64,000 bases of DNA from Nitratiruptor tergarcus DSM 16512 (GTDB taxonomy: Bacteria; Campylobacterota; Campylobacteria; Campylobacterales; Nitratiruptoraceae): contig NZ_AP026671.1 in NCBI RefSeq assembly GCF_027946175.1, positions 558,001 through 622,000 of the forward strand. Reading direction: 5' to 3'. The notes under the pieces were generated by a model. That model did no database searches. It saw only the letters and a list, made by a program, of their open reading frames with translations, and was not told the DNA's origin. Position numbers and translations under genes: made by a program. Of this stretch, positions 142-14,354 are shown one piece after another; the stretch's first letter is position 1, and each line of letters starts with the position of its first letter.

Positions 142-957
142 ATGAAAGTTACAATTGCAGGCGGCGTGCATGGAAATGAACTTATAGGCATTTATATTGT
201 AAAAAAACTGATGCGAGAAAATTTTTGGCTCAAAGATATTGCAATAGATTACTTACTAGCAAATCCAAAAGCTATAAAAGAGTGCAGACGCTATATAGAC
301 TACGATCTCAATCGCTCTTTTTCTCAAGAAGCACTCAGCAAAGACTCTCATATTTATGAATATGAACGAGCTAAAGTGCTCAAAAAAAGATTAGAAGATA
401 CAGATTTTCTCATAGATTTGCATACTACTACTGCAAATATGGGTATCACAATAGTACTTAGCAAAGATGATCCTCTGAGCGCAAATATAGCCAAAATATT
501 GGCAAGAGAGTATGAAAATGTCAAGATCCTTCGCTGGTTTGGCACTGAGGAGGGCAACTTTATCAATAGCTGTGTGAAAAGTTCCATTACAATTGAAGTT
601 GGTCCTGTCTGTCAAGGGGTATTGGATGCATCAATCTTTTTTAATACACTGAAAGTACTCAAAAGAGCCTTAGATATTTTGCGAAAAGATGAAAAGATGG
701 ATGAGAAGGTGGTCTGTTACGATATTTATGATTATAGGGATTTTCCAAGAGAGGACGAAGAGCTTGCAGGCATGATTCATCCTGAATTTCTTGGGAGAGA
801 TTATCAACTGCTTCATCATGGTGATCCAATATTTTTACGATTTGATGAAGAAGAGATTTTTTATGAAGGAGAGCCATCCTATCCTGTTTTTATCAATGAA
901 GCAGCCTATTACGAAAAGAAAATAGCTTTTTGTTTAGCAAAGAAAAATATGCTTTAG
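142..957 (+). CDS. Aspartoacylase/succinylglutamate desuccinylase family zinc hydrolase
   Basis: This 271-residue protein belongs to the AspA/AstE branch of the M14-like zinc hydrolases, which remove an acyl group from an N-acylated amino acid. The zinc site is visible as GGVHGNE (His10, Glu13) and LIDLHTTT (His94). The substrate-carboxylate pair lies in YDLNRSF (Asn57-Arg58), and the catalytic Glu152 in TIEVGPVCQG. The VGP and DLNRSF forms resemble aspartoacylase more than succinylglutamate desuccinylase, but the substrate is not certain. There is no signal peptide, so it should be cytoplasmic. It follows metE by 38 bp and could be co-transcribed with it. Two carboxypeptidases and two ATP-grasp ligases lie 3-6 kb downstream, which may or may not be related to its role. 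Confidence 0.8.
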   Translation: MKVTIAGGVHGNELIGIYIVKKLMRENFWLKDIAIDYLLANPKAIKECRRYIDYDLNRSFSQEALSKDSHIYEYERAKVLKKRLEDTDFLIDLHTTTANMGITIVLSKDDPLSANIAKILAREYENVKILRWFGTEEGNFINSCVKSSITIEVGPVCQGVLDASIFFNTLKVLKRALDILRKDEKMDEKVVCYDIYDYRDFPREDEELAGMIHPEFLGRDYQLLHHGDPIFLRFDEEEIFYEGEPSYPVFINEAAYYEKKIAFCLAKKNML

Positions 958-3177: not shown

Positions 3178-3198
3178 AGAGGCTCAAGCCTCTTTTTT
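3176..3198 (+). terminator. Intrinsic terminator between convergent genes
   Basis: An 8-bp stem (3176-3183 with 3188-3195, loop TCAA) runs into six T residues (3193-3198), a good intrinsic terminator for the + strand barrel gene. The same hairpin contains the last codon and stop of the opposing M20 peptidase gene, so the ends of both genes are built into the structure. On the - strand the tract after the hairpin is A/T-rich but less T-pure. Confidence 0.8.
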
Positions 3199-4281
3199 GC
3201 TTTCTTGCATAAATCCTTTTAATAGTGACGTAGTAAGTTCAATTCTTTGTATAAAGCTTTTTTTACTCGCTCTTTCATGTATAGTATGATCTCCATCTCC
3301 ATAAGGACCGAATCCATCTAATGTAACAGTACCTGCAGATGCAGCAATATTTGCATCGCTTCCACCACCACGATGCTCGACTGGAAGCTTGATTCCTGTC
3401 CATTGTTTTATACGCTCCAAAAATGCGAGTTGCTCTGGACGCTCCTCCATTACATCGCGCTGCAGTCTTCCACCTAGTGTAGCAGTTGTTCCAGGAATAA
3501 AAGAGGTATTGGTAATTTCAGTCATACTTGCAAGAACTCTGTCTCTTTCACTTGCACTTGTAAAACGAGTTTCAAAAAGAAGCGTAGCCATTGGACTAAT
3601 CGTATTTGCGCCAATTCCTCCTTCAATCTTGCCTACATTTACCGTTGTTCCATTATCTGGATCGCTTAAGTGTGAAAGAGCCAGAATTTTATGAGCAGCT
3701 TCTTGGTTCGCATCAATTCCATCTTTAAAGCAGTTTCCTGCATGAGCAGCTTTTCCTTTTATCTCTATCTCAAATGTACCTATCCCTTTTCTTTGGGTAA
3801 CAACCTCACCATTTTTGCCGGCTGCTTCAAATACAAGGCAGTAGTCATACTCTTTGGCTATATTGAATGTAAGTTCTGAAGAGTCATCGCTGCCGGTCTC
3901 TTCGTCGCTTACTAAAAAAATATCTACATTAAAAAGCTCTTTTTGGCGGCGCAAAGCCTCTATCATGACCATAATCCCGCCTTTCATATCACAAACCCCA
4001 GGACCATAGATCCACTCTTCATCTTCCCTGAAATATTCAAATGTTCCAGGTGGAAATACTGTATCGAGGTGTCCTAGAAGCAGAATTTTTTCTCCCTCTT
4101 TTTTGGGTGACTTGAACCATAAGTGATTACCTATATGTTCTCTTTCAAAAACTGTAGTTACGTATCCTAAAGATTCTAGTTTTATACGTACTATTTCACC
4201 GTTTTTATCCACTCCAGCTTTATTTTTAGTATAAGAATTAATATTGATAAGCTCTTCTAATTCACTAAAACTATACTCCAT
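3184..4281 (-). CDS. M20 family metallopeptidase, glutamate carboxypeptidase (CPG2)-like
   Basis: This 365-residue enzyme has the di-zinc M20 signatures in order: GHLDTVF (His71, Asp73), GPGVCDMKGG (bridging Asp98), DEETGS (Glu127 catalytic, Glu128 ligand), a dimerisation domain in the middle, and GGGSDAN and HTIHERA near the C-terminus. The pattern is closest to carboxypeptidase G2, which cleaves C-terminal glutamate from peptides and folates. There is no signal peptide, whereas Pseudomonas CPG2 is exported, so this one should act in the cytoplasm. It is transcribed away from a two-ligase/M14 cassette, with only 59 bp between the start codons, which suggests shared control and possibly a shared substrate. 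The exact substrate is unknown. Confidence 0.85.
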   Translation of the reverse strand: MEYSFSELEELININSYTKNKAGVDKNGEIVRIKLESLGYVTTVFEREHIGNHLWFKSPKKEGEKILLLGHLDTVFPPGTFEYFREDEEWIYGPGVCDMKGGIMVMIEALRRQKELFNVDIFLVSDEETGSDDSSELTFNIAKEYDYCLVFEAAGKNGEVVTQRKGIGTFEIEIKGKAAHAGNCFKDGIDANQEAAHKILALSHLSDPDNGTTVNVGKIEGGIGANTISPMATLLFETRFTSASERDRVLASMTEITNTSFIPGTTATLGGRLQRDVMEERPEQLAFLERIKQWTGIKLPVEHRGGGSDANIAASAGTVTLDGFGPYGDGDHTIHERASKKSFIQRIELTTSLLKGFMQESKKEA

Positions 4282-4340
4282 TTTAAAACCTTTTAATCAA
4301 CTTTTATGTATTATAAAAAAAATTTTCTTAAGGGATTCTC

Positions 4341-5240
4341 ATGGCTCATATCGGGATATGGATGTACCAAAATGGAGGTGGTGATGTCATTGAGCAAAAG
4401 ATGGTGCGAAAACTGCAAGAAAGAGGCCATAAAGTAACTACAGGTCTCAACCTTCGCCATGCTATTGCAGAAAATGGGAAAATGTTGCTTGATGGTATGA
4501 ATTTGTATGAGCTTGACTGTTTTTTTAGCTACAACGCAGGAGAGCAGACAAAATATCAGGTCTACCTTTATGAGGCGCTAGACAGGCATGTTCCTTGTAT
4601 TAATAATTTTCAAGCTTTTGCCATCAGTGAAGACAAGTTTAAAACAAATGATACATTAAGATTGCATGGTATCCGCACGGCTGACTATTTTTTATGCCAC
4701 AGAGAAGATGTCGAGACGATTCGCAACAAAGTCTTGGAATGGGGCAAAGCGGTCTTTAAGACAGTTGATGGCTGGGGCGGTATGGGAATGGCGTTAGTAG
4801 ATAGTAAAGATAAGCTAGATATGATTTTACCATTTTTAAACCAAACAGATCTACGTTTTTTCTATATAGAAAAATTCATCGATTATGACGGAAGTGACTA
4901 TCGCATCGATATAGTTAATGGGGAGTTTATTGCCTGTTATGGTAGAAAGGCAAAAGAGGGGGATTGGAGAACAAATGTGACGAGTGGTGGCAGTGTAATT
5001 ATGAGAGATTGTGATGATAAAGTGATTGAATTGGCAAAAAGAGCTGCAAATGCTCTTAACATCGAGATAGCCGGTGTGGATATCATCTACGATAGGGCAA
5101 ATGAAGAGTATGTGGTGCTTGAGGTGAACGGGATTCCGGCATTTGCAACACCTGAGCAAGAGCAAATGGGACTTGATTTTAATGACAAAAAGATAGAAAA
5201 AATTGTAGAACTAATAGATAAAAGGATAAACAATGGCTAA
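4341..5240 (+). CDS. ATP-grasp ligase, RimK-like
   Basis: This 299-residue ATP-grasp enzyme resembles the RimK family, which joins amino acids (often glutamate) to a carboxylate through an acyl-phosphate. The ATP lysine and glycine loop appear as VFKTVDGWGGMGM (Lys140), the RimK-type segment as DWRTNVTSGGS (209-219), and the metal ligands as Asp247 and LEVNG (Glu261, Asn263). All key residues look intact. The first 95 residues form the pre-ATP-grasp domain. The gene overlaps the next ATP-grasp gene by 8 nt and diverges from an M20 carboxypeptidase. The acceptor is unknown: it could be a protein tail, a small peptide or a cofactor. Confidence 0.85.
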   Translation: MAHIGIWMYQNGGGDVIEQKMVRKLQERGHKVTTGLNLRHAIAENGKMLLDGMNLYELDCFFSYNAGEQTKYQVYLYEALDRHVPCINNFQAFAISEDKFKTNDTLRLHGIRTADYFLCHREDVETIRNKVLEWGKAVFKTVDGWGGMGMALVDSKDKLDMILPFLNQTDLRFFYIEKFIDYDGSDYRIDIVNGEFIACYGRKAKEGDWRTNVTSGGSVIMRDCDDKVIELAKRAANALNIEIAGVDIIYDRANEEYVVLEVNGIPAFATPEQEQMGLDFNDKKIEKIVELIDKRINNG

Positions 5241-6648
5241 AAAACTTCCAAAAATAGGACTTTTGTATCTCGATTATGTACTGAGATTTTTTGATAAGAG
5301 CAACTTTAGAGGTTGGCCGGATAAAATAGAGACAGTGGTCTATCACTGGAAAGGGGATGAAGAGCGGTTTATTAAAGAGGTAAAGAAAAAAAAGATTGAT
5401 GTACTCATTGGAAATATTCCGGCAACGGCGTATGAGACCTTTAGAAAAATTGCAAGAGAGCTTCCAAATGTGAGATTCATTCCAAGTTTAGATGCCCAAT
5501 TTGCCAATAAAAGCAAAGAAAATGTGACAAGATTTTGCTGGAAATATGACATCCCTATTCCAAAAACGTACATTTTTTATGATAAAGAAGAGGGAATGGA
5601 GTTTTTAAAAAACACTATCTATCCAAAAATTATTAAACGCAGTTATGGTCCAAGCAATTATGGTGGATATTATGTTCATAAAGTTGACAGTTTCGAAGAA
5701 GCAAAAAAGCTGCTTGAAACTAAAAAATATTGTCCAATTTATGTGCAAGATTTCGTACCAATGAGTGCAGATATCAGGGTCATGCTTATTGGCCATAAAC
5801 CTGTATGTGCTTTTTGGAGAAGACCACCTGAGGGACACTGGCTAACAAACACAAGTCAGGGTGGAAGCATGGATTATATGGATGTGCCAAAAGGAGTACT
5901 TGATTTGGCTGTCAAAGTGAGTAAAGCGGCAAATGCGGAGTATTGGGCGTGTGATATTGCTGTTGGAAAAGAGGATGGCAAATATAGAATACTTGAGTGT
6001 GCTACCGCCTTTGCCGCGTTTCCATACATCAGAGATTGGATAGGGCAATATCTCATGTGGAAACTCAGTAATGGTAGATTTCCTAAGCCAAATATACCTG
6101 TATACAACTGGGAGGAGCTTGGCAAAATCGACAGCTCTCTTCTTAGAACCATGCGCTATATTACATTTGGCCGCTATACACCAAGTTTTGATGGAGCATA
6201 TTTTCTTAATCGCCAAAAGATGGCAGAGGATGGTAGTGTAAAAGCGCTTTGGGAGCTTGATGAGCAGTATCCAATGCTAAATACTGAGGATAGAGACTAT
6301 GAGGAGTGGCCAAGTGAAAAGTGGGATTTTACAGGTAAATGTAAAGGTTTTTGGAAAGGTAAAAGCCCTAAAGAGAAACAAGAATCGAACGAAGAGTATG
6401 TCTTTGAAGAGCCACAAGATGCAGAACCGGTGACTCTAACAGAAGAGCAGATTATTAACTTTTTAGAAGAAACGCTGGGCAAAAAGAGAGCAAAAAAAGT
6501 TTTGGATCGGATGGATGCATTTAATATCGCTTATGCACTGGATAATAATCCAGAGAGTTTATTGGAGCTTAAAGGAATAAAAGATAAAACTCTGCAAAAA
6601 CTTCTCATAGCCTGGGAAGCATTTAAAAAGGAATCGGTTGAAGCATAA
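5233..6648 (+). CDS. Second ATP-grasp ligase with C-terminal helical (HhH-like) extension
   Basis: This 471-residue protein has an N-terminal alpha/beta domain (1-90), an ATP-grasp core (about 95-290) and a long tail. The ATP lysine region is KIIKRSYGPSNYGGYY (132-147), and WLTNTSQGGS (203-212) matches the RimK-type segment. Where the first ligase has LEVN this one has LECA (254-257), so the metal-binding Asn is replaced by Ala. The tail contains a charged linker (about 375-400) and then helices whose sequence NPESLLELKGIKDKTLQKLL looks like a helix-hairpin-helix unit. It overlaps the ligase before it (8 nt) and the M14 gene after it (11 nt). It may be a divergent catalyst or a partner of the first ligase. 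Confidence 0.8.
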   Translation: MAKKLPKIGLLYLDYVLRFFDKSNFRGWPDKIETVVYHWKGDEERFIKEVKKKKIDVLIGNIPATAYETFRKIARELPNVRFIPSLDAQFANKSKENVTRFCWKYDIPIPKTYIFYDKEEGMEFLKNTIYPKIIKRSYGPSNYGGYYVHKVDSFEEAKKLLETKKYCPIYVQDFVPMSADIRVMLIGHKPVCAFWRRPPEGHWLTNTSQGGSMDYMDVPKGVLDLAVKVSKAANAEYWACDIAVGKEDGKYRILECATAFAAFPYIRDWIGQYLMWKLSNGRFPKPNIPVYNWEELGKIDSSLLRTMRYITFGRYTPSFDGAYFLNRQKMAEDGSVKALWELDEQYPMLNTEDRDYEEWPSEKWDFTGKCKGFWKGKSPKEKQESNEEYVFEEPQDAEPVTLTEEQIINFLEETLGKKRAKKVLDRMDAFNIAYALDNNPESLLELKGIKDKTLQKLLIAWEAFKKESVEA

Positions 6649-9214
6649 TTATCTCTCTTATCAAGATACAATAAAATTTTTAGAGGATATGGTCAAAAAA
6701 TATCCTCACCTTATACAGATGCAAACGATTGGCTCAACATGGGAAAATCGACCAATTGTTTTAGCAACAATTACTCAAAATGTAGAGTTTGCCCATCTCA
6801 AACCAGCTCTACTTTATACAGGGACTATCCATGCAAGAGAGTGGATAGGTAACGAGCTTGCTGTTGCATTTATTCGCTATTTATTGACGCACTCTACAAC
6901 GGATCCAAGAGTGATGGAAGCGTTATCCAAAAGTACGCTCTATATCGTTCCGGTACTCAATCCTGATGGATTTGAGTACTCTCGAACACACTACTCTTTT
7001 TGGCGAAAAAATAGGCGCAAAAATCCTGATGGCAGTTATGGTGTCGATCTTAATAGAAACTTTAGTGTGGGCTGGGTAAAAAGTACAAATTATTCATCCA
7101 ATGTCTATGGTGGACCAGCTCCATTCAGTGAGCCAGAGACAAAAGCTATCAAAGAGTTTGTAGACAGTCATCCAAATATTACCATTGCTCTTGATTATCA
7201 CTCCCAAGGCAATGTCTTCTTTCCAGCCCATAAATTCAACCATGAAGCTGAAATTGACGGGACAGATCTCAATGTGCTTTGTGCCAATATGAACTATGAG
7301 ATATTTAAAGTAACGGGTAGAAAGTATGGTATCCACAGAGGAAAACCACCTACAAAGCTTATCAGCGGAAGCGGAAGGGAGTATTACTACTCAAAAGGGA
7401 TTTTGGCATCTGTTGTTGAGGTTGGAACAAGAAATATTCCGGACTATTTGCAAAATATGAGCGAATCGATCCATGAAAATATTCCAGCCCTTTTGTATGC
7501 TATGAGGGAAGCTTCAAATTATGCTCCATTACACCCACCAAGAGTAGAGTTTTTTACAATCAAGGAGAGTAGCAGCAACGCTGTTACATTAGAGTGGGAG
7601 TATGACCTTCAAGCCAATAGTGGAGTCTACTTTGAAATATATCGAAATGATCAACACAAGGAAGCGTGTAGGGAGCCATCACTCATAGGCACTACAACAA
7701 GACTGGAGTTTACCGATACAGACAGAGAGAGTGGAAAACTCTATTTTTACTATATTCGACCTGTCAATCTGCTTTCACGCCAAAAAGGCCCTTTTGCACC
7801 ACAAGTCAAGGTAATGACGACACTTGAGAGGGATGAGTTTTTTAGAAACCTCTTTCCGGCACCAAAAGATATAGGATATGTAGCGCACAAATCGAACAAA
7901 AACCGGGAGCATTTTGGCAAAAACTCTCTGTTTGTAGGGGTCAACGAGACGCTGGGTATAAGTTATGGTGTCATTCGTTTCAAACTCGATTCCGTTGCAA
8001 AAAATGCCCTTATTAAAGAGGCAAAAATCAGTCTTTATCCCCTTAACAGAGTTAATGTAAAGATTGAAAAATATGGTGAGTGGTCTATTTCTATTATAGA
8101 GAGTGTTGATGATATTACCGATTTTGACCAAATTCACAATGCAAAAGTAATTCAGACATTGGGGCAGACTATTCCATCGCAGCAGCTAACGCAAGGGATT
8201 TGGAAAACATGGAACTTCAATAGCTATGAAAGAGAGCTTTTGCAAGAGGCTATTAAAAAGGGAGAGGTGCTCTTTCGTATACAAGGACCTACAAAACTTC
8301 CTTTGGGAAGTGATTCACAGATGATGATGTTTGATTTGGGCTATGGTCCTTTTGGTGGGGGAATTCACTATCGCCCGCATCTTGATATCAAATATACTTT
8401 GCCTTCCACTAAACTTGAGATTGAGCCAAGCCGATTGGCTACAGTTACAAAAGATGGTGTTACACTAGATACCTTGAGCTGTGGATTTGATAGTGATGGA
8501 GATGTGGTGTATGGCTTTATGGAGTTTGATCTCTCAAGCTTGCCAGAAGCTGATACGACAGTGATTACAAATGCTTTCATAAGAATCCATAACAAACCGA
8601 TCAAACCAAGTGGAGAAGATATTCGCTATCTTATTGAGCTTGTCGATTTGGATGAGTTAGATTATGAGAAGCTCGAACATCGAGAATCTCTTGGGTTTAT
8701 AGATTATGAGGTGAGTGAGACTGAGCTTGCAAAAAAAGATGAGCATCTATTTTTGTTTGATACTTCTAGCAAAATTGAACTAGAAAACGCCCATGCACAA
8801 GATAAAAAAGTGGGCTTTATAATTCGACCTACTAAAGCATCACAGACAAAAAATCACATCATAGACTGGTATGACAAAAGAAGCCAAAATGAAGTCAAAC
8901 TCGATCTTAAATATATAAAAAGAAGAAAATATCCCGTTGCTCCTGTAAAAGATCTCTCGGCAAAAATAGAAAAAGGGATGGTAAAACTTACATGGGAAAA
9001 TCCTACAGACCCAGATTTTGTCGGTGCCTATGTGGTACGCAACCGATTCCATCCTCCACGTAATCCCCAAGATGGAGTGAAGCTCTATGCCGGAAAAGAC
9101 AACTATACGTATGACAATTTTGGCAATACCAAAATCGCCAAATACTATGCCGTGTTTACCTACGACGATGTGCCCAATTACAGTGAGCCCGTGATTTTAT
9201 ATTATGAGCCTTGA
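6638..9214 (+). CDS. Large M14 zinc carboxypeptidase with FN3 and DNRLRE-like domains
   Basis: This 858-residue protein starts at a TTG codon supported by AAAAGG seven bases upstream; no ATG fits. Residues 1-300 are an M14 carboxypeptidase: HAREW gives His65 and Glu68, VDLNRNF gives Asn139-Arg140, DYHSQG gives the third ligand His188, and VVEVGTR gives the catalytic Glu261. A fibronectin type III-like domain follows (about 303-390), then two long beta-rich stretches resembling DNRLRE modules (about 405-585 and 590-755), then a second FN3-like domain (about 770-855). Such modules normally belong to exported proteins, yet no signal peptide is visible. Overlap with the ligase gene implies a shared function, perhaps removal of residues that the ligases add. 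Confidence 0.85.
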   Translation: MKHNYLSYQDTIKFLEDMVKKYPHLIQMQTIGSTWENRPIVLATITQNVEFAHLKPALLYTGTIHAREWIGNELAVAFIRYLLTHSTTDPRVMEALSKSTLYIVPVLNPDGFEYSRTHYSFWRKNRRKNPDGSYGVDLNRNFSVGWVKSTNYSSNVYGGPAPFSEPETKAIKEFVDSHPNITIALDYHSQGNVFFPAHKFNHEAEIDGTDLNVLCANMNYEIFKVTGRKYGIHRGKPPTKLISGSGREYYYSKGILASVVEVGTRNIPDYLQNMSESIHENIPALLYAMREASNYAPLHPPRVEFFTIKESSSNAVTLEWEYDLQANSGVYFEIYRNDQHKEACREPSLIGTTTRLEFTDTDRESGKLYFYYIRPVNLLSRQKGPFAPQVKVMTTLERDEFFRNLFPAPKDIGYVAHKSNKNREHFGKNSLFVGVNETLGISYGVIRFKLDSVAKNALIKEAKISLYPLNRVNVKIEKYGEWSISIIESVDDITDFDQIHNAKVIQTLGQTIPSQQLTQGIWKTWNFNSYERELLQEAIKKGEVLFRIQGPTKLPLGSDSQMMMFDLGYGPFGGGIHYRPHLDIKYTLPSTKLEIEPSRLATVTKDGVTLDTLSCGFDSDGDVVYGFMEFDLSSLPEADTTVITNAFIRIHNKPIKPSGEDIRYLIELVDLDELDYEKLEHRESLGFIDYEVSETELAKKDEHLFLFDTSSKIELENAHAQDKKVGFIIRPTKASQTKNHIIDWYDKRSQNEVKLDLKYIKRRKYPVAPVKDLSAKIEKGMVKLTWENPTDPDFVGAYVVRNRFHPPRNPQDGVKLYAGKDNYTYDNFGNTKIAKYYAVFTYDDVPNYSEPVILYYEP

Positions 9215-9216
9215 AA

Positions 9217-10269
9217 ATGAAAGCACTTGTGGCAAGGGAGTGGCTCTTTTTTCTTTCTTTGATGCTTTTTGTATCGACTTCTCTTTTTATTGGCTCCCTG
9301 CCACACTATTCGCAAGATGAATACCAAATCCTTTTCATACTTTTTACTCTTTTTGTCGTCATAGAAGGATTGAAGCGGACCCGCTTCTTGCATGCTTTGG
9401 CTATCAATATGGAGCGCTTGGGCCTTGGAGCTTATGCTTTAATCGTTGGAACATTTTTAATATCCTTTTTCGTTACTAACGATGTAGCACTCATTATTAT
9501 GGTACCTCTGACACTTTCTATGCAAATTACCAATCGTTCGTGGGCCGTCATCCTCGAAGCCATAGCTGCCAACGCTGCTGCTTTACTGCCATACTCCACA
9601 CCACAAAATCTCTACATCTACTGGCACTATCACATTCCGGCACTTCAATTCATGCTCACAATCGCACCCTTTGTCTTTTTCTTCTTTCTTTTAACCCTTC
9701 TTGGGGTTTGGTGGTTTGATATCCGGATACAAAAGAGCGAAATCATTCCTCCGGCTATCCACAAAAAAGCCTATCCTTATCTCTTTTTCTTTCTTCTGAT
9801 TTTGGGAGTTATTTTCAATCTCCTCCCTTTGTGGCTGGGAGGGTTGGTGATTTTTTATGCACTTCTTTTGGATACCAGATCGCTTCGTATAGACTATTTT
9901 CTTCTTGCCACATTCTATCTATTTTTTGGTATAGCTGATAATTTCACGCATATATTCGCTTCGCAACTACACCATCCCCATCATATCTTTCTTCTTTCCA
10001 TTTTTCTTTCGCAACTGATGAGTAATGTCCCGGCCACACTTCTTCTGGCCAATTTCACTCATGAGTGGCAATCCCTTCTTTGGGGTGTGAGCGTGGGAGG
10101 ATATGGAGTGTTGTGGGGCTCTTTGGCAAATCTTATCGCCTATCGCTTCTACGCCAAAGAGTTTGGCAACCAGGAGCGTTTTTTGCAGCGTTTTTTACTC
10201 TTGAATATTTTGGCGCTTCTTCTGGGAATCGCTCTTTTTTTTAGCTGTTATAAATTTATAATTTTGTAA
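9217..10269 (+). CDS. ArsB/SLC13-like anion permease
   Basis: This is a roughly 350-residue integral membrane protein with about ten hydrophobic helices. The paired re-entrant motifs of the ion-transporter superfamily are recognisable as FFVTNDVALIIMVPL in the first half and SNVPATLLLANF in the second, as in ArsB, NhaD and citrate/SLC13 permeases. It is shorter than ArsB (about 430). The reading frame also has a TTG at 9211 that overlaps the previous stop; I prefer the ATG at 9217. It directly follows the M14 gene and is probably translated by coupling. Base composition is clearly more GC-rich than in most of the window. The substrate is unknown; a dicarboxylate or amino-acid-derived anion would suit the neighbours. 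Confidence 0.75.
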   Translation: MKALVAREWLFFLSLMLFVSTSLFIGSLPHYSQDEYQILFILFTLFVVIEGLKRTRFLHALAINMERLGLGAYALIVGTFLISFFVTNDVALIIMVPLTLSMQITNRSWAVILEAIAANAAALLPYSTPQNLYIYWHYHIPALQFMLTIAPFVFFFFLLTLLGVWWFDIRIQKSEIIPPAIHKKAYPYLFFFLLILGVIFNLLPLWLGGLVIFYALLLDTRSLRIDYFLLATFYLFFGIADNFTHIFASQLHHPHHIFLLSIFLSQLMSNVPATLLLANFTHEWQSLLWGVSVGGYGVLWGSLANLIAYRFYAKEFGNQERFLQRFLLLNILALLLGIALFFSCYKFIIL

Positions 10270-12539: not shown

Positions 12540-14354
12540 TCACAAAACTTGTTTGAATGAAATGATGAGTTTTTCATGGGGAAATTTTTTCTTGATTCGA
12601 TGTAAAATCGTTTCTTTAGCTTTAATATTCAATTCTTTATTGCTCAAAACCGATATAAAAAGAGTTGCTCCTCCTTTATGATATTGGATATTATCAAGTT
12701 GCAGTGTTACATCTTTGAATTTTAAATATTTTATCTGCTCATAAATTCGCTCTTCTTTAAGAACTGTCTGCGTGGCGACATAGAGTGGGAAAAAGATTGA
12801 TATCAAAAGCATGAGTTTGATAGCAAGTGCAGCTGAGGCGTATCTTTTGGATGCGTAGCCAAGAAGATAAAACATTATCCCTGCTGCAAAAACAATTCCT
12901 ATAATGTTTGCGAGATAGAGCAAAAATGCTTTATAAAATACATCTATATTCTCCCATCCAAGACCAATACCCGCAACACAAAGAGGTGGTACAAGTGCCA
13001 CTGCAATTGCAACGCCAGCTAAACTCTCTCCAACCTTTGAGTTTGCATATCCATATGCGGCGGCAAGTCCTGCGAGGATTGCTACACCAAGATCAAGAAG
13101 TGTAGGATTGGTGCGTATAGCCATCTGCTGTGTCATGTGCTCTATTGGGAATAGATTTGTAAACCCGAGGGCTAGCAAAAGAGCTAGAAGTGTAGAAATA
13201 AATACCGTTTTGAAACTATTTTTGACAAGAGTTTCATCAAAGCGAATAATTCCCATAGCAAGCGATATCACAGGCGCCATAAGCGGAGCTAAAATCATCG
13301 CACCGATAATTGTGGGAGAGGAGTTTTGAAAAAGGCCAAAGGTTGCCATCAAAACACTAATTAGAAGTAAAACTGTATATTCTATGCTTATTTTAGCATT
13401 ATCTTTGATTTTTTTAAAAAGATCTGCGAAGGCCTCTTCTGGAGCTATGGGTAAAAATGGCAAAGTTCTTTTGGTATAAAAATTGATAAACTCCTCATCT
13501 CTTGGAAGGCGATCAACTCTTATTGTCTCTTTTTCCTCTTTGGGACATGGCTTTGTTCCTGATACTATTTGGAGATTTGTCGGGACAATTTTGAGTATTA
13601 CATTTTTTGAGGTTATTGGTGCTTCATTATCACAAATAAGTGTAAGTTCTTTTTCTGCATTGAGTTTGATGCTATCTGTTACTAAAGTCCCTATACCCTT
13701 AGGAAGAAATTTTTGATCTTTTTTTACAAGAAAATAGCGCAGTTTAAGAGCTTCTATTATACTTGTTGGTGCATAGAGAACAGCAGCTACTTTTTTGCAT
13801 CCAGTTTGGGTATCTGTTAAAAAGGCTTCTCTTTTTTCTTTGATATATCTTGCATCTCCGGCTTCTATTAATAGTGAAGCAGTGATAAATTTTTGAGATT
13901 TAAGCTCTATATTTGTTTTAAAAAGGCGAATATTATAGAAGTTTTTTAAAAATGAGAGAAAAATATTTTGATTTGTTATCCACTTTTTATCACCTATCAC
14001 TGCTGATGAAAAGAGGAGTTTTTCGTTGCAGTATGTAAAATAATGCTGTTTCGTGGTAAGTGAGAAAAGCTCTTCAAGAGATGGGGGGAGATTAAAATAT
14101 TTCTGTGTTAAAGGATTGGAAGCATAGGGAATGATATAGATAGTAAAATTTTTCGCTTTTGCATAATGTAGCCATGCTTTGATTTCATTATCTCCAGCAA
14201 GCAAGAAGATAATTGATGATGGAGGGAAATCAACTATTTTGTCGTGAAACTCTTTTTTTATAGGATGCTTATGGAGATGCTCATATATGAGAAGCGAGTA
14301 CTTTTTTATAATCTCATGTTTAATATTTTTATCGTACAATAAATAGCAATGCAT
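12540..14354 (-). CDS. TIGR00341/DUF389 family membrane protein with degenerate DAGK-like N-terminus
   Basis: This is a 604-residue protein. The C-terminal half (about 330-530) carries the hydrophobic DUF389 core, recognised by SPTIIGAMILAPLMAPVISL and the following helices with PTLLDLGVAILAGLAAAYGYA and VALVPPLCVAG. Residues 1-300 form a soluble alpha/beta region. Segments such as IIFLLAGDNEIKAWLHYAKA followed by IYIIPYASNP are placed like the nucleotide loop and glycine-rich turn of diacylglycerol-kinase-type domains, but the GGDGT motif is lost. Function is unknown. It is convergent with purL and starts 41 bp from pfkA in the opposite direction. Confidence 0.75.
   Translation of the reverse strand: MHCYLLYDKNIKHEIIKKYSLLIYEHLHKHPIKKEFHDKIVDFPPSSIIFLLAGDNEIKAWLHYAKAKNFTIYIIPYASNPLTQKYFNLPPSLEELFSLTTKQHYFTYCNEKLLFSSAVIGDKKWITNQNIFLSFLKNFYNIRLFKTNIELKSQKFITASLLIEAGDARYIKEKREAFLTDTQTGCKKVAAVLYAPTSIIEALKLRYFLVKKDQKFLPKGIGTLVTDSIKLNAEKELTLICDNEAPITSKNVILKIVPTNLQIVSGTKPCPKEEKETIRVDRLPRDEEFINFYTKRTLPFLPIAPEEAFADLFKKIKDNAKISIEYTVLLLISVLMATFGLFQNSSPTIIGAMILAPLMAPVISLAMGIIRFDETLVKNSFKTVFISTLLALLLALGFTNLFPIEHMTQQMAIRTNPTLLDLGVAILAGLAAAYGYANSKVGESLAGVAIAVALVPPLCVAGIGLGWENIDVFYKAFLLYLANIIGIVFAAGIMFYLLGYASKRYASAALAIKLMLLISIFFPLYVATQTVLKEERIYEQIKYLKFKDVTLQLDNIQYHKGGATLFISVLSNKELNIKAKETILHRIKKKFPHEKLIISFKQVL

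Follow-up and report, generated by a model that had tools for sequence, protein, structure and literature searches.

The window analysed here, a 64,000-nucleotide stretch of the deep-sea-vent bacterium Nitratiruptor tergarcus DSM 16512, belongs to a genome of 1.94 Mb; among named relatives, Nitratiruptor sp. metagenome-assembled genomes are closest to it. Near one end of the window, two genes for ATP-grasp proteins are flanked by two genes for metallo-carboxypeptidases, and a gene for an anion-permease-like protein follows. The features are:

3184..4281, minus strand: M20 metallo-carboxypeptidase, CPG2-like (Pfam Peptidase_M20 and M20_dimer; profile match to 1cg2, CPG2)
4282..4340, no strand: divergent intergenic region between M20 and ATPg1, 59 bp (ORF coordinates)
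4341..5240, plus strand: ATPg1, a RimK/MptN-like ATP-grasp ligase (Pfam RimK; best NCBIfam scores with rimK_fam and MptN)
5233..6648, plus strand: ATPg2, a LysX/ArgX-like ATP-grasp ligase with a C-terminal HhH region at about residues 404-466 (Pfam RimK; Foldseek; hhalign to ATPg1)
6638..9214, plus strand: M14 carboxypeptidase of the A/B type, TTG start, 858 aa (Pfam Peptidase_M14)
9211..10269, plus strand: CitMHS/anion-permease-like protein, a neighbour outside the conserved cassette (Pfam CitMHS)

The plus-strand ORFs overlap by 8 nt (ATPg1/ATPg2), 11 nt (ATPg2/M14) and 4 nt (M14/CitMHS-like). The five ORFs and their spacing are as an earlier, sequence-only reading of this DNA had placed them, and its family calls hold in Pfam and NCBIfam searches, although none of the cassette proteins passes a curated NCBIfam cut-off. 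PADLOC anti-phage defence models gave zero matches among the five proteins, and Rfam gave no match anywhere in the window.

Upstream of M20 lies a gene for an AstE/AspA-type aspartoacylase (window 142-957, plus strand; NCBIfam aspartoacylase 299.8 versus a cut-off of 180), with HtpX, a 131-aa ORF and a 281-aa ORF in between; AspA, HtpX and the permease are kept near the cassette in the window's lineage only. A 604-aa DUF389/TIGR00341 membrane protein, encoded at 12540-14354 on the minus strand, is a cassette neighbour in some relatives (L035, L039) as well.

A conserved unit of four genes

The conserved unit is M20, ATPg1, ATPg2 and M14, four genes and not five. The order M20-ATPg1-ATPg2-M14 repeats, with unrelated flanks, in 20 relatives from many families, M20 being either divergent from ATPg1 or co-directional upstream of it. 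Gene order was further counted in 80 loci, comprising a scan of GTDB genomes and one Photobacterium record, with the loci that hold enough sequence as denominators; the scan gave 313 ATPg2 relatives, and the best 80 of the 313 are all from Campylobacterota. The block order is preserved in most of these further loci. Specifically, ATPg1 adjoins ATPg2 in 75/75 loci, M20 adjoins ATPg1 in 50/56 (in one of the six exceptions, the script had extended an ORF too far), the M20/ATPg1 layout is divergent in 46 of the 50 loci with M20 scored adjacent, and M14 lies no more than 600 nt from ATPg2 in 52/63. The gene arrangement is far beyond chance.

The sequence-only reading had also counted the transporter (Pfam CitMHS, 5.6e-20) as a member of the system. 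In such a five-gene system, the anion permease would import or export the substrate, and the 4-nt overlap with M14 in the window and the position of the permease gene after M14 in some Nitratiruptoraceae speak for it. However, the permease follows M14 in 2 of the 45 more distant loci with enough flank, and it is absent both in a genome of the same genus (G011) and in Photobacterium. It is a lineage-specific neighbour, and the five-gene system, already largely refuted, is extremely improbable.

Co-occurrence was scored in 298 Campylobacterota genomes, drawn evenly across the phylum. ATPg1, ATPg2 and M14 are all present in 29 of the 298 genomes and all absent in 266, with a mixed outcome in three; singly, ATPg1 occurs in 30 genomes, ATPg2 in 30 (plus one broken copy) and M14 in 31. 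Fisher tests, which ignore relatedness, give p values of 1e-36 or smaller (about 1e-37). Within the window's own family, all three genes are present in 14 genomes and none in eight, close relatives within one genus included, and M20 is absent where the other three are absent in seven tested genomes of this family. The coupled ligase/carboxypeptidase set proposed by the sequence-only reading is borne out by this co-occurrence across Campylobacterota and by the conserved order. The genes stay together in most relatives, and no curated family assigns any member to an unrelated pathway.

Departures from the full set are few. Partial sets consist of M20 and ATPg1 in one genome (G030), ATPg2 and M14 in a second (G249), and M14 only in a third (G286). 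An M14 gene accompanied by a remnant of ATPg2 where a contig ends (G022) is probably an assembly gap. In G080, a broken ATPg2 fragment with several stops (C1:157098-157472) is present while M14, ATPg1 and M20 were not found, which suggests a recent loss of the cassette. In two genomes of one genus (G037 and G162), ATPg2 lies elsewhere in the genome, unlinked from the other three genes, and sits between efp and dnaE (L049:6336-12091 of G037; L099:7020-12671 of G162). In L049, where efp and dnaE were identified by Pfam, efp (elongation factor P) is 35 nt upstream of ATPg2 and dnaE is 26 nt downstream; L099 has the matching ORF clusters. EF-P is itself modified in many bacteria.

The cassette is horizontally mobile, and is gained, lost and spread as a unit. 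In the marine Photobacterium sp. DA100, a 2.1 Mb replicon holds the four genes together, at 53-58% identity, arranged in the same divergent way and lacking the permease. In the ATPg2 tree, three families (f6, f9 and f17) each have members in both main clades, which agrees with transfer within the phylum; Photobacterium sits on a long branch that points to no particular donor. Viral contigs gave no relative, and phages gave only distant RimK-like matches. Among these, Synechococcus phages (records H45-H60, e.g. KU686203.1:160043-160597) encode RimK-like ATP-grasp proteins, annotated as S6 modification enzymes, with 23-28% identity to ATPg2.

Neighbouring genes were considered as pathway clues and set aside: the flanks vary freely, and a scan of the neighbourhood beyond the two intergenic gaps for ORFs of 80 aa or more revealed no further conserved neighbours. 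Neighbours of cassette genes in single lineages are efp and dnaE, in the one genus mentioned above, and a hexapeptide-repeat (left-handed beta-helix) transferase, which lies after M14 at five loci, all from one family (L110:11577-12074, L101, L108, L109 and L112).

Predicted activities of the four enzymes

Judged by residue conservation, the four cassette enzymes all keep their catalytic residues, save for one magnesium-binding Asn of ATPg2. None of the four has an evident signal peptide.

M20 matches Pfam Peptidase_M20 (3.6e-20) and M20_dimer, and the nearest solved structure is carboxypeptidase G2 (1cg2; profile match 1e-43). Its predicted metal-site and catalytic residues are complete: H71, D98, E127, E128, E152 and R275 are invariant in 65 sequences, and H332 is invariant in the 61/61 sequences that reach it. 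M20 scores below the cut-off of a curated glutamate carboxypeptidase model (PRK06133, 200.6 bits versus 349) and below that of its best curated match (PRK07338, 214.7 versus 357).

M14 (Pfam Peptidase_M14, 2e-57) is predicted to be an A/B-type carboxypeptidase with a complete catalytic set. In particular, H65, E68, R123, R140, H188 and E261, together with Arg247, are invariant in 64/64 sequences. In alignments, Arg247 falls opposite Asp255 of human carboxypeptidase B and Ile255 of CPA4, i.e. at CPA position 255, which sets specificity, and at which Arg confers a preference for acidic C-terminal residues (Glu/Asp) in carboxypeptidase O (PMC9925722). Together, Arg at this position of M14 and the CPG2-like nature of M20 fit removal of acidic C-terminal residues. 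The C-terminal ~560 residues of M14 form beta domains (model pLDDT 80), which include a DNRLRE-like stretch and, in the Photobacterium orthologue, fn3. An N-terminal hydrophobic stretch is found in none of 57 M14 orthologues, and M14 is therefore probably cytoplasmic.

Both ligases match Pfam RimK (ATPg1, 3.3e-22; ATPg2, 1.9e-12). The RimK-family model rimK_fam is not passed (ATPg1 128.2 and ATPg2 76.5 bits versus a cut-off of 143.4), and neither is the S6-ligase model PRK10446 (67.4 versus 331). For ATPg1, the best NCBIfam scores are those with rimK_fam and MptN (125.2), both below cut-off, and the protein is nearest to RimK and MptN, which are alpha-L-glutamate ligases. Residues K140, R188, D247, E261 and N263 of ATPg1 are invariant in 78 sequences; we equate Arg188 and Asn263, as putative counterparts, with R189 and N262 of RimK, which contact polyglutamate (PMC10092738). 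The N-terminal third of ATPg1 is not alignable to RimK structures.

ATPg2 is closest to LysX/ArgX by sequence, and the top Foldseek matches, obtained with a low-confidence model (pLDDT 64.5), are likewise ArgX/LysX. In ATPg2, the E-x-N motif lacks the metal-binding Asn (ECATAFAAFP), which is replaced or deleted in 82/82 sequences, and A257 is invariant in the 82 sequences. Because this magnesium-binding Asn is the usual second metal ligand, the activity of ATPg2 is uncertain. Its loss, together with the extra HhH region, would suit a regulator or scaffold rather than an active ligase, with catalysis by ATPg1, M20 and M14 only. The ATP-site Lys, Arg, Asp and Glu are, however, invariant, and conservation along the protein is highest in the ATP-grasp region; we consider a purely regulatory or scaffolding ATPg2 improbable. 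The HhH region is strong in two clades, weak in the window, and undetectable in one Campylobacterota clade and in Photobacterium: HHH_5 scores 19 bits in the window, below cut-off, and HHH_3 reaches 1.5e-25 and 3e-19 in orthologues. In the two clades with a strong signal, the HhH domains suggest that the partner is a macromolecule, which may be bound to nucleic acid.

Candidate acceptors and a proposed write-and-trim cycle

Three candidate acceptors were examined and are not supported. The C-terminal tails of ribosomal protein S6 are alike with and without the cassette (17 and 11 genomes, respectively): G011, with the cassette, and G001, without it, have identical ends, and G320, with the cassette, has no acidic tail. 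The tails do not track the cassette, which counts against S6, though not decisively. The LysW carrier (TIGR01206) is absent from 12/12 cassette genomes, with positive results in control genomes. An encoded precursor, as in a graspetide/RiPP system, is not conserved in the two intergenic gaps, neither of which holds a small ORF that persists past closely related strains.

The predicted activities support a cytoplasmic set that would form and cleave peptide bonds to acidic residues. Our first-ranked reading, held tentatively and at less than an even chance, is that the cassette writes and trims acidic residues, most likely Glu, on the C-terminal or side-chain carboxylate of a host macromolecule. 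The acceptor would be cytoplasmic, not encoded by the cassette, and most likely a protein or peptide found in many hosts. ATPg1 and ATPg2 would use ATP to activate the carboxylate as an acyl phosphate and couple it to the amino group of the residue being added; the first bond would be the work of one ligase, and a second bond type or an extension that of the other. M14, whose specificity position holds Arg, would take off terminal Glu or Asp from alpha-linked ends, while the CPG2-like M20 would take off the residue added by the other ligase, and the ratio of ligase to hydrolase activity would set the length of the tag. In this scheme, we infer glutamate as the residue and a protein as the acceptor, as well as the division of labour, the substrate, the direction of the reactions and their reversibility in the cell. 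The sequence-only idea of a peptide tag that is built and trimmed gains from the ligase/carboxypeptidase coupling, the Arg255 equivalent of M14 and the CPG2-like M20, and loses its transporter.

Since the four genes travel alone, the acceptor should be either something that many hosts have or nothing at all, the substrates then being free amino acids. In the latter case, the cassette would make or recycle a free small peptide, glutathione-like or dipeptide-solute-like, with no protein acceptor; the two ligases would link free amino acids through two bonds in succession, M14 would remove the acidic C-terminal residue, and M20 would split the remaining dipeptide. A self-contained mobile unit without a conserved acceptor, precursor or carrier gene agrees with this proposal. 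It is also favoured by the two-plus-two symmetry of ligases and hydrolases, which corresponds to two bonds, and by the partial sets of one ligase with one hydrolase (M20/ATPg1 in G030 and ATPg2/M14 in G249). Furthermore, small N-acyl amino acids are common substrates of M20 enzymes. On the other hand, the ~560-residue beta domains of M14 and the ATPg2 HhH region of two clades are unusual for small-metabolite enzymes and favour a macromolecule, and ATPg2 is unlinked from the other three genes in G037 and G162. A free small peptide ranks second to the macromolecular tag and is almost as likely, though still on the unlikely side.

A glutamate side chain might instead be added to, and trimmed from, a widespread small cofactor that is folate-like or resembles methylofuran or methanopterin. 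CPG2 cleaves folate glutamate, and MptN is among the best NCBIfam matches of ATPg1. MyfA and MyfB are likewise two RimK-family ATP-grasp ligases that work on one product, building the polyglutamate chain of methylofuran; unlike the cassette genes, they belong to a coenzyme cluster, and the text searched reports no carboxypeptidases there (PMC8141765). However, the cassette brings no cofactor gene with it, an alpha-specific M14 A/B enzyme is not expected to cut gamma-linked folate chains, and patchy presence inside one genus fits poorly with an essential cofactor. We give a cofactor acceptor a small probability.

In its most specific form, the macromolecular tag would be a new reversible protein modification, in which two ATP-grasp ligases, one with a DNA-binding-type HhH region, add acidic residues to a conserved and perhaps nucleic-acid-associated protein, two unrelated metallocarboxypeptidases remove them, and the four-gene unit spreads between phyla. 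We regard this version as rather unlikely. Documented cases of write-and-erase glutamylation in bacteria are very few (RimK with RimB). The cassette, with its pair of writers, its pair of erasers and a different chemistry, would be a second such set, present across Campylobacterota and in a Photobacterium, and would yield either a protein modification or a non-ribosomal small peptide that is new. As it has only four genes, the unit can be moved to a laboratory host and its product sought directly by mass spectrometry.

Relation to known systems

The four-gene cassette is real and coherent, and it is apparently undescribed, a provisional statement since it rests on a literature search in which no paper describing the four-gene set was found. 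The closest parallel is RimK-RimB (RimABK), in which RimK adds and RimB removes Glu on RpsF; it shares with the cassette a RimK-family ATP-grasp ligase, a remover of added glutamates and a scattered distribution (PMC11957791). When the cassette is compared with known RimK/RimB clusters, as the sequence-only reading had proposed, it differs in its erasers, which are two zinc metallocarboxypeptidases whereas RimB is a retropepsin, in having two ligases, both below the RimK-family cut-off, and in that S6 tails do not track it. RimB (PF05618) is, moreover, absent in 9/12 cassette genomes (the window's genome and eight others) and present in 3/12.

The LysW/AmCP lysine-arginine pathway (LysX, ArgX, LysK) resembles the cassette in that ATPg2 is nearest to LysX/ArgX and an M20 hydrolase is present. 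Unlike that pathway, the cassette genomes have no LysW (12/12), no other pathway gene is conserved, and M20 is CPG2-like, not LysK-like. RloABC of Pseudomonas aeruginosa likewise combines a cytoplasmic ATP-grasp protein and a peptidase in an operon, and its authors liken it to RimBK (PMC12239564). However, the cassette has nothing resembling the secreted, aspartic RloA or the membrane protein RloB.

In tubulin glutamylation, to which the sequence-only reading had likened the set, ATP-dependent TTLL glutamate ligases work against CCP M14 carboxypeptidases. The shared logic of ligase and M14 carboxypeptidase stands, as an analogy of logic only: in Pfam and PDB matches, the cassette M14 matches CPA, CPB and CPT (with CPO in the list), and the ligases are RimK-type. 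Carboxypeptidase O (M14A) shares with the cassette M14 the Arg at position 255, but CPO comes from animals and has a signal peptide, whereas the cassette M14 is bacterial, probably cytoplasmic, and carries large accessory domains.
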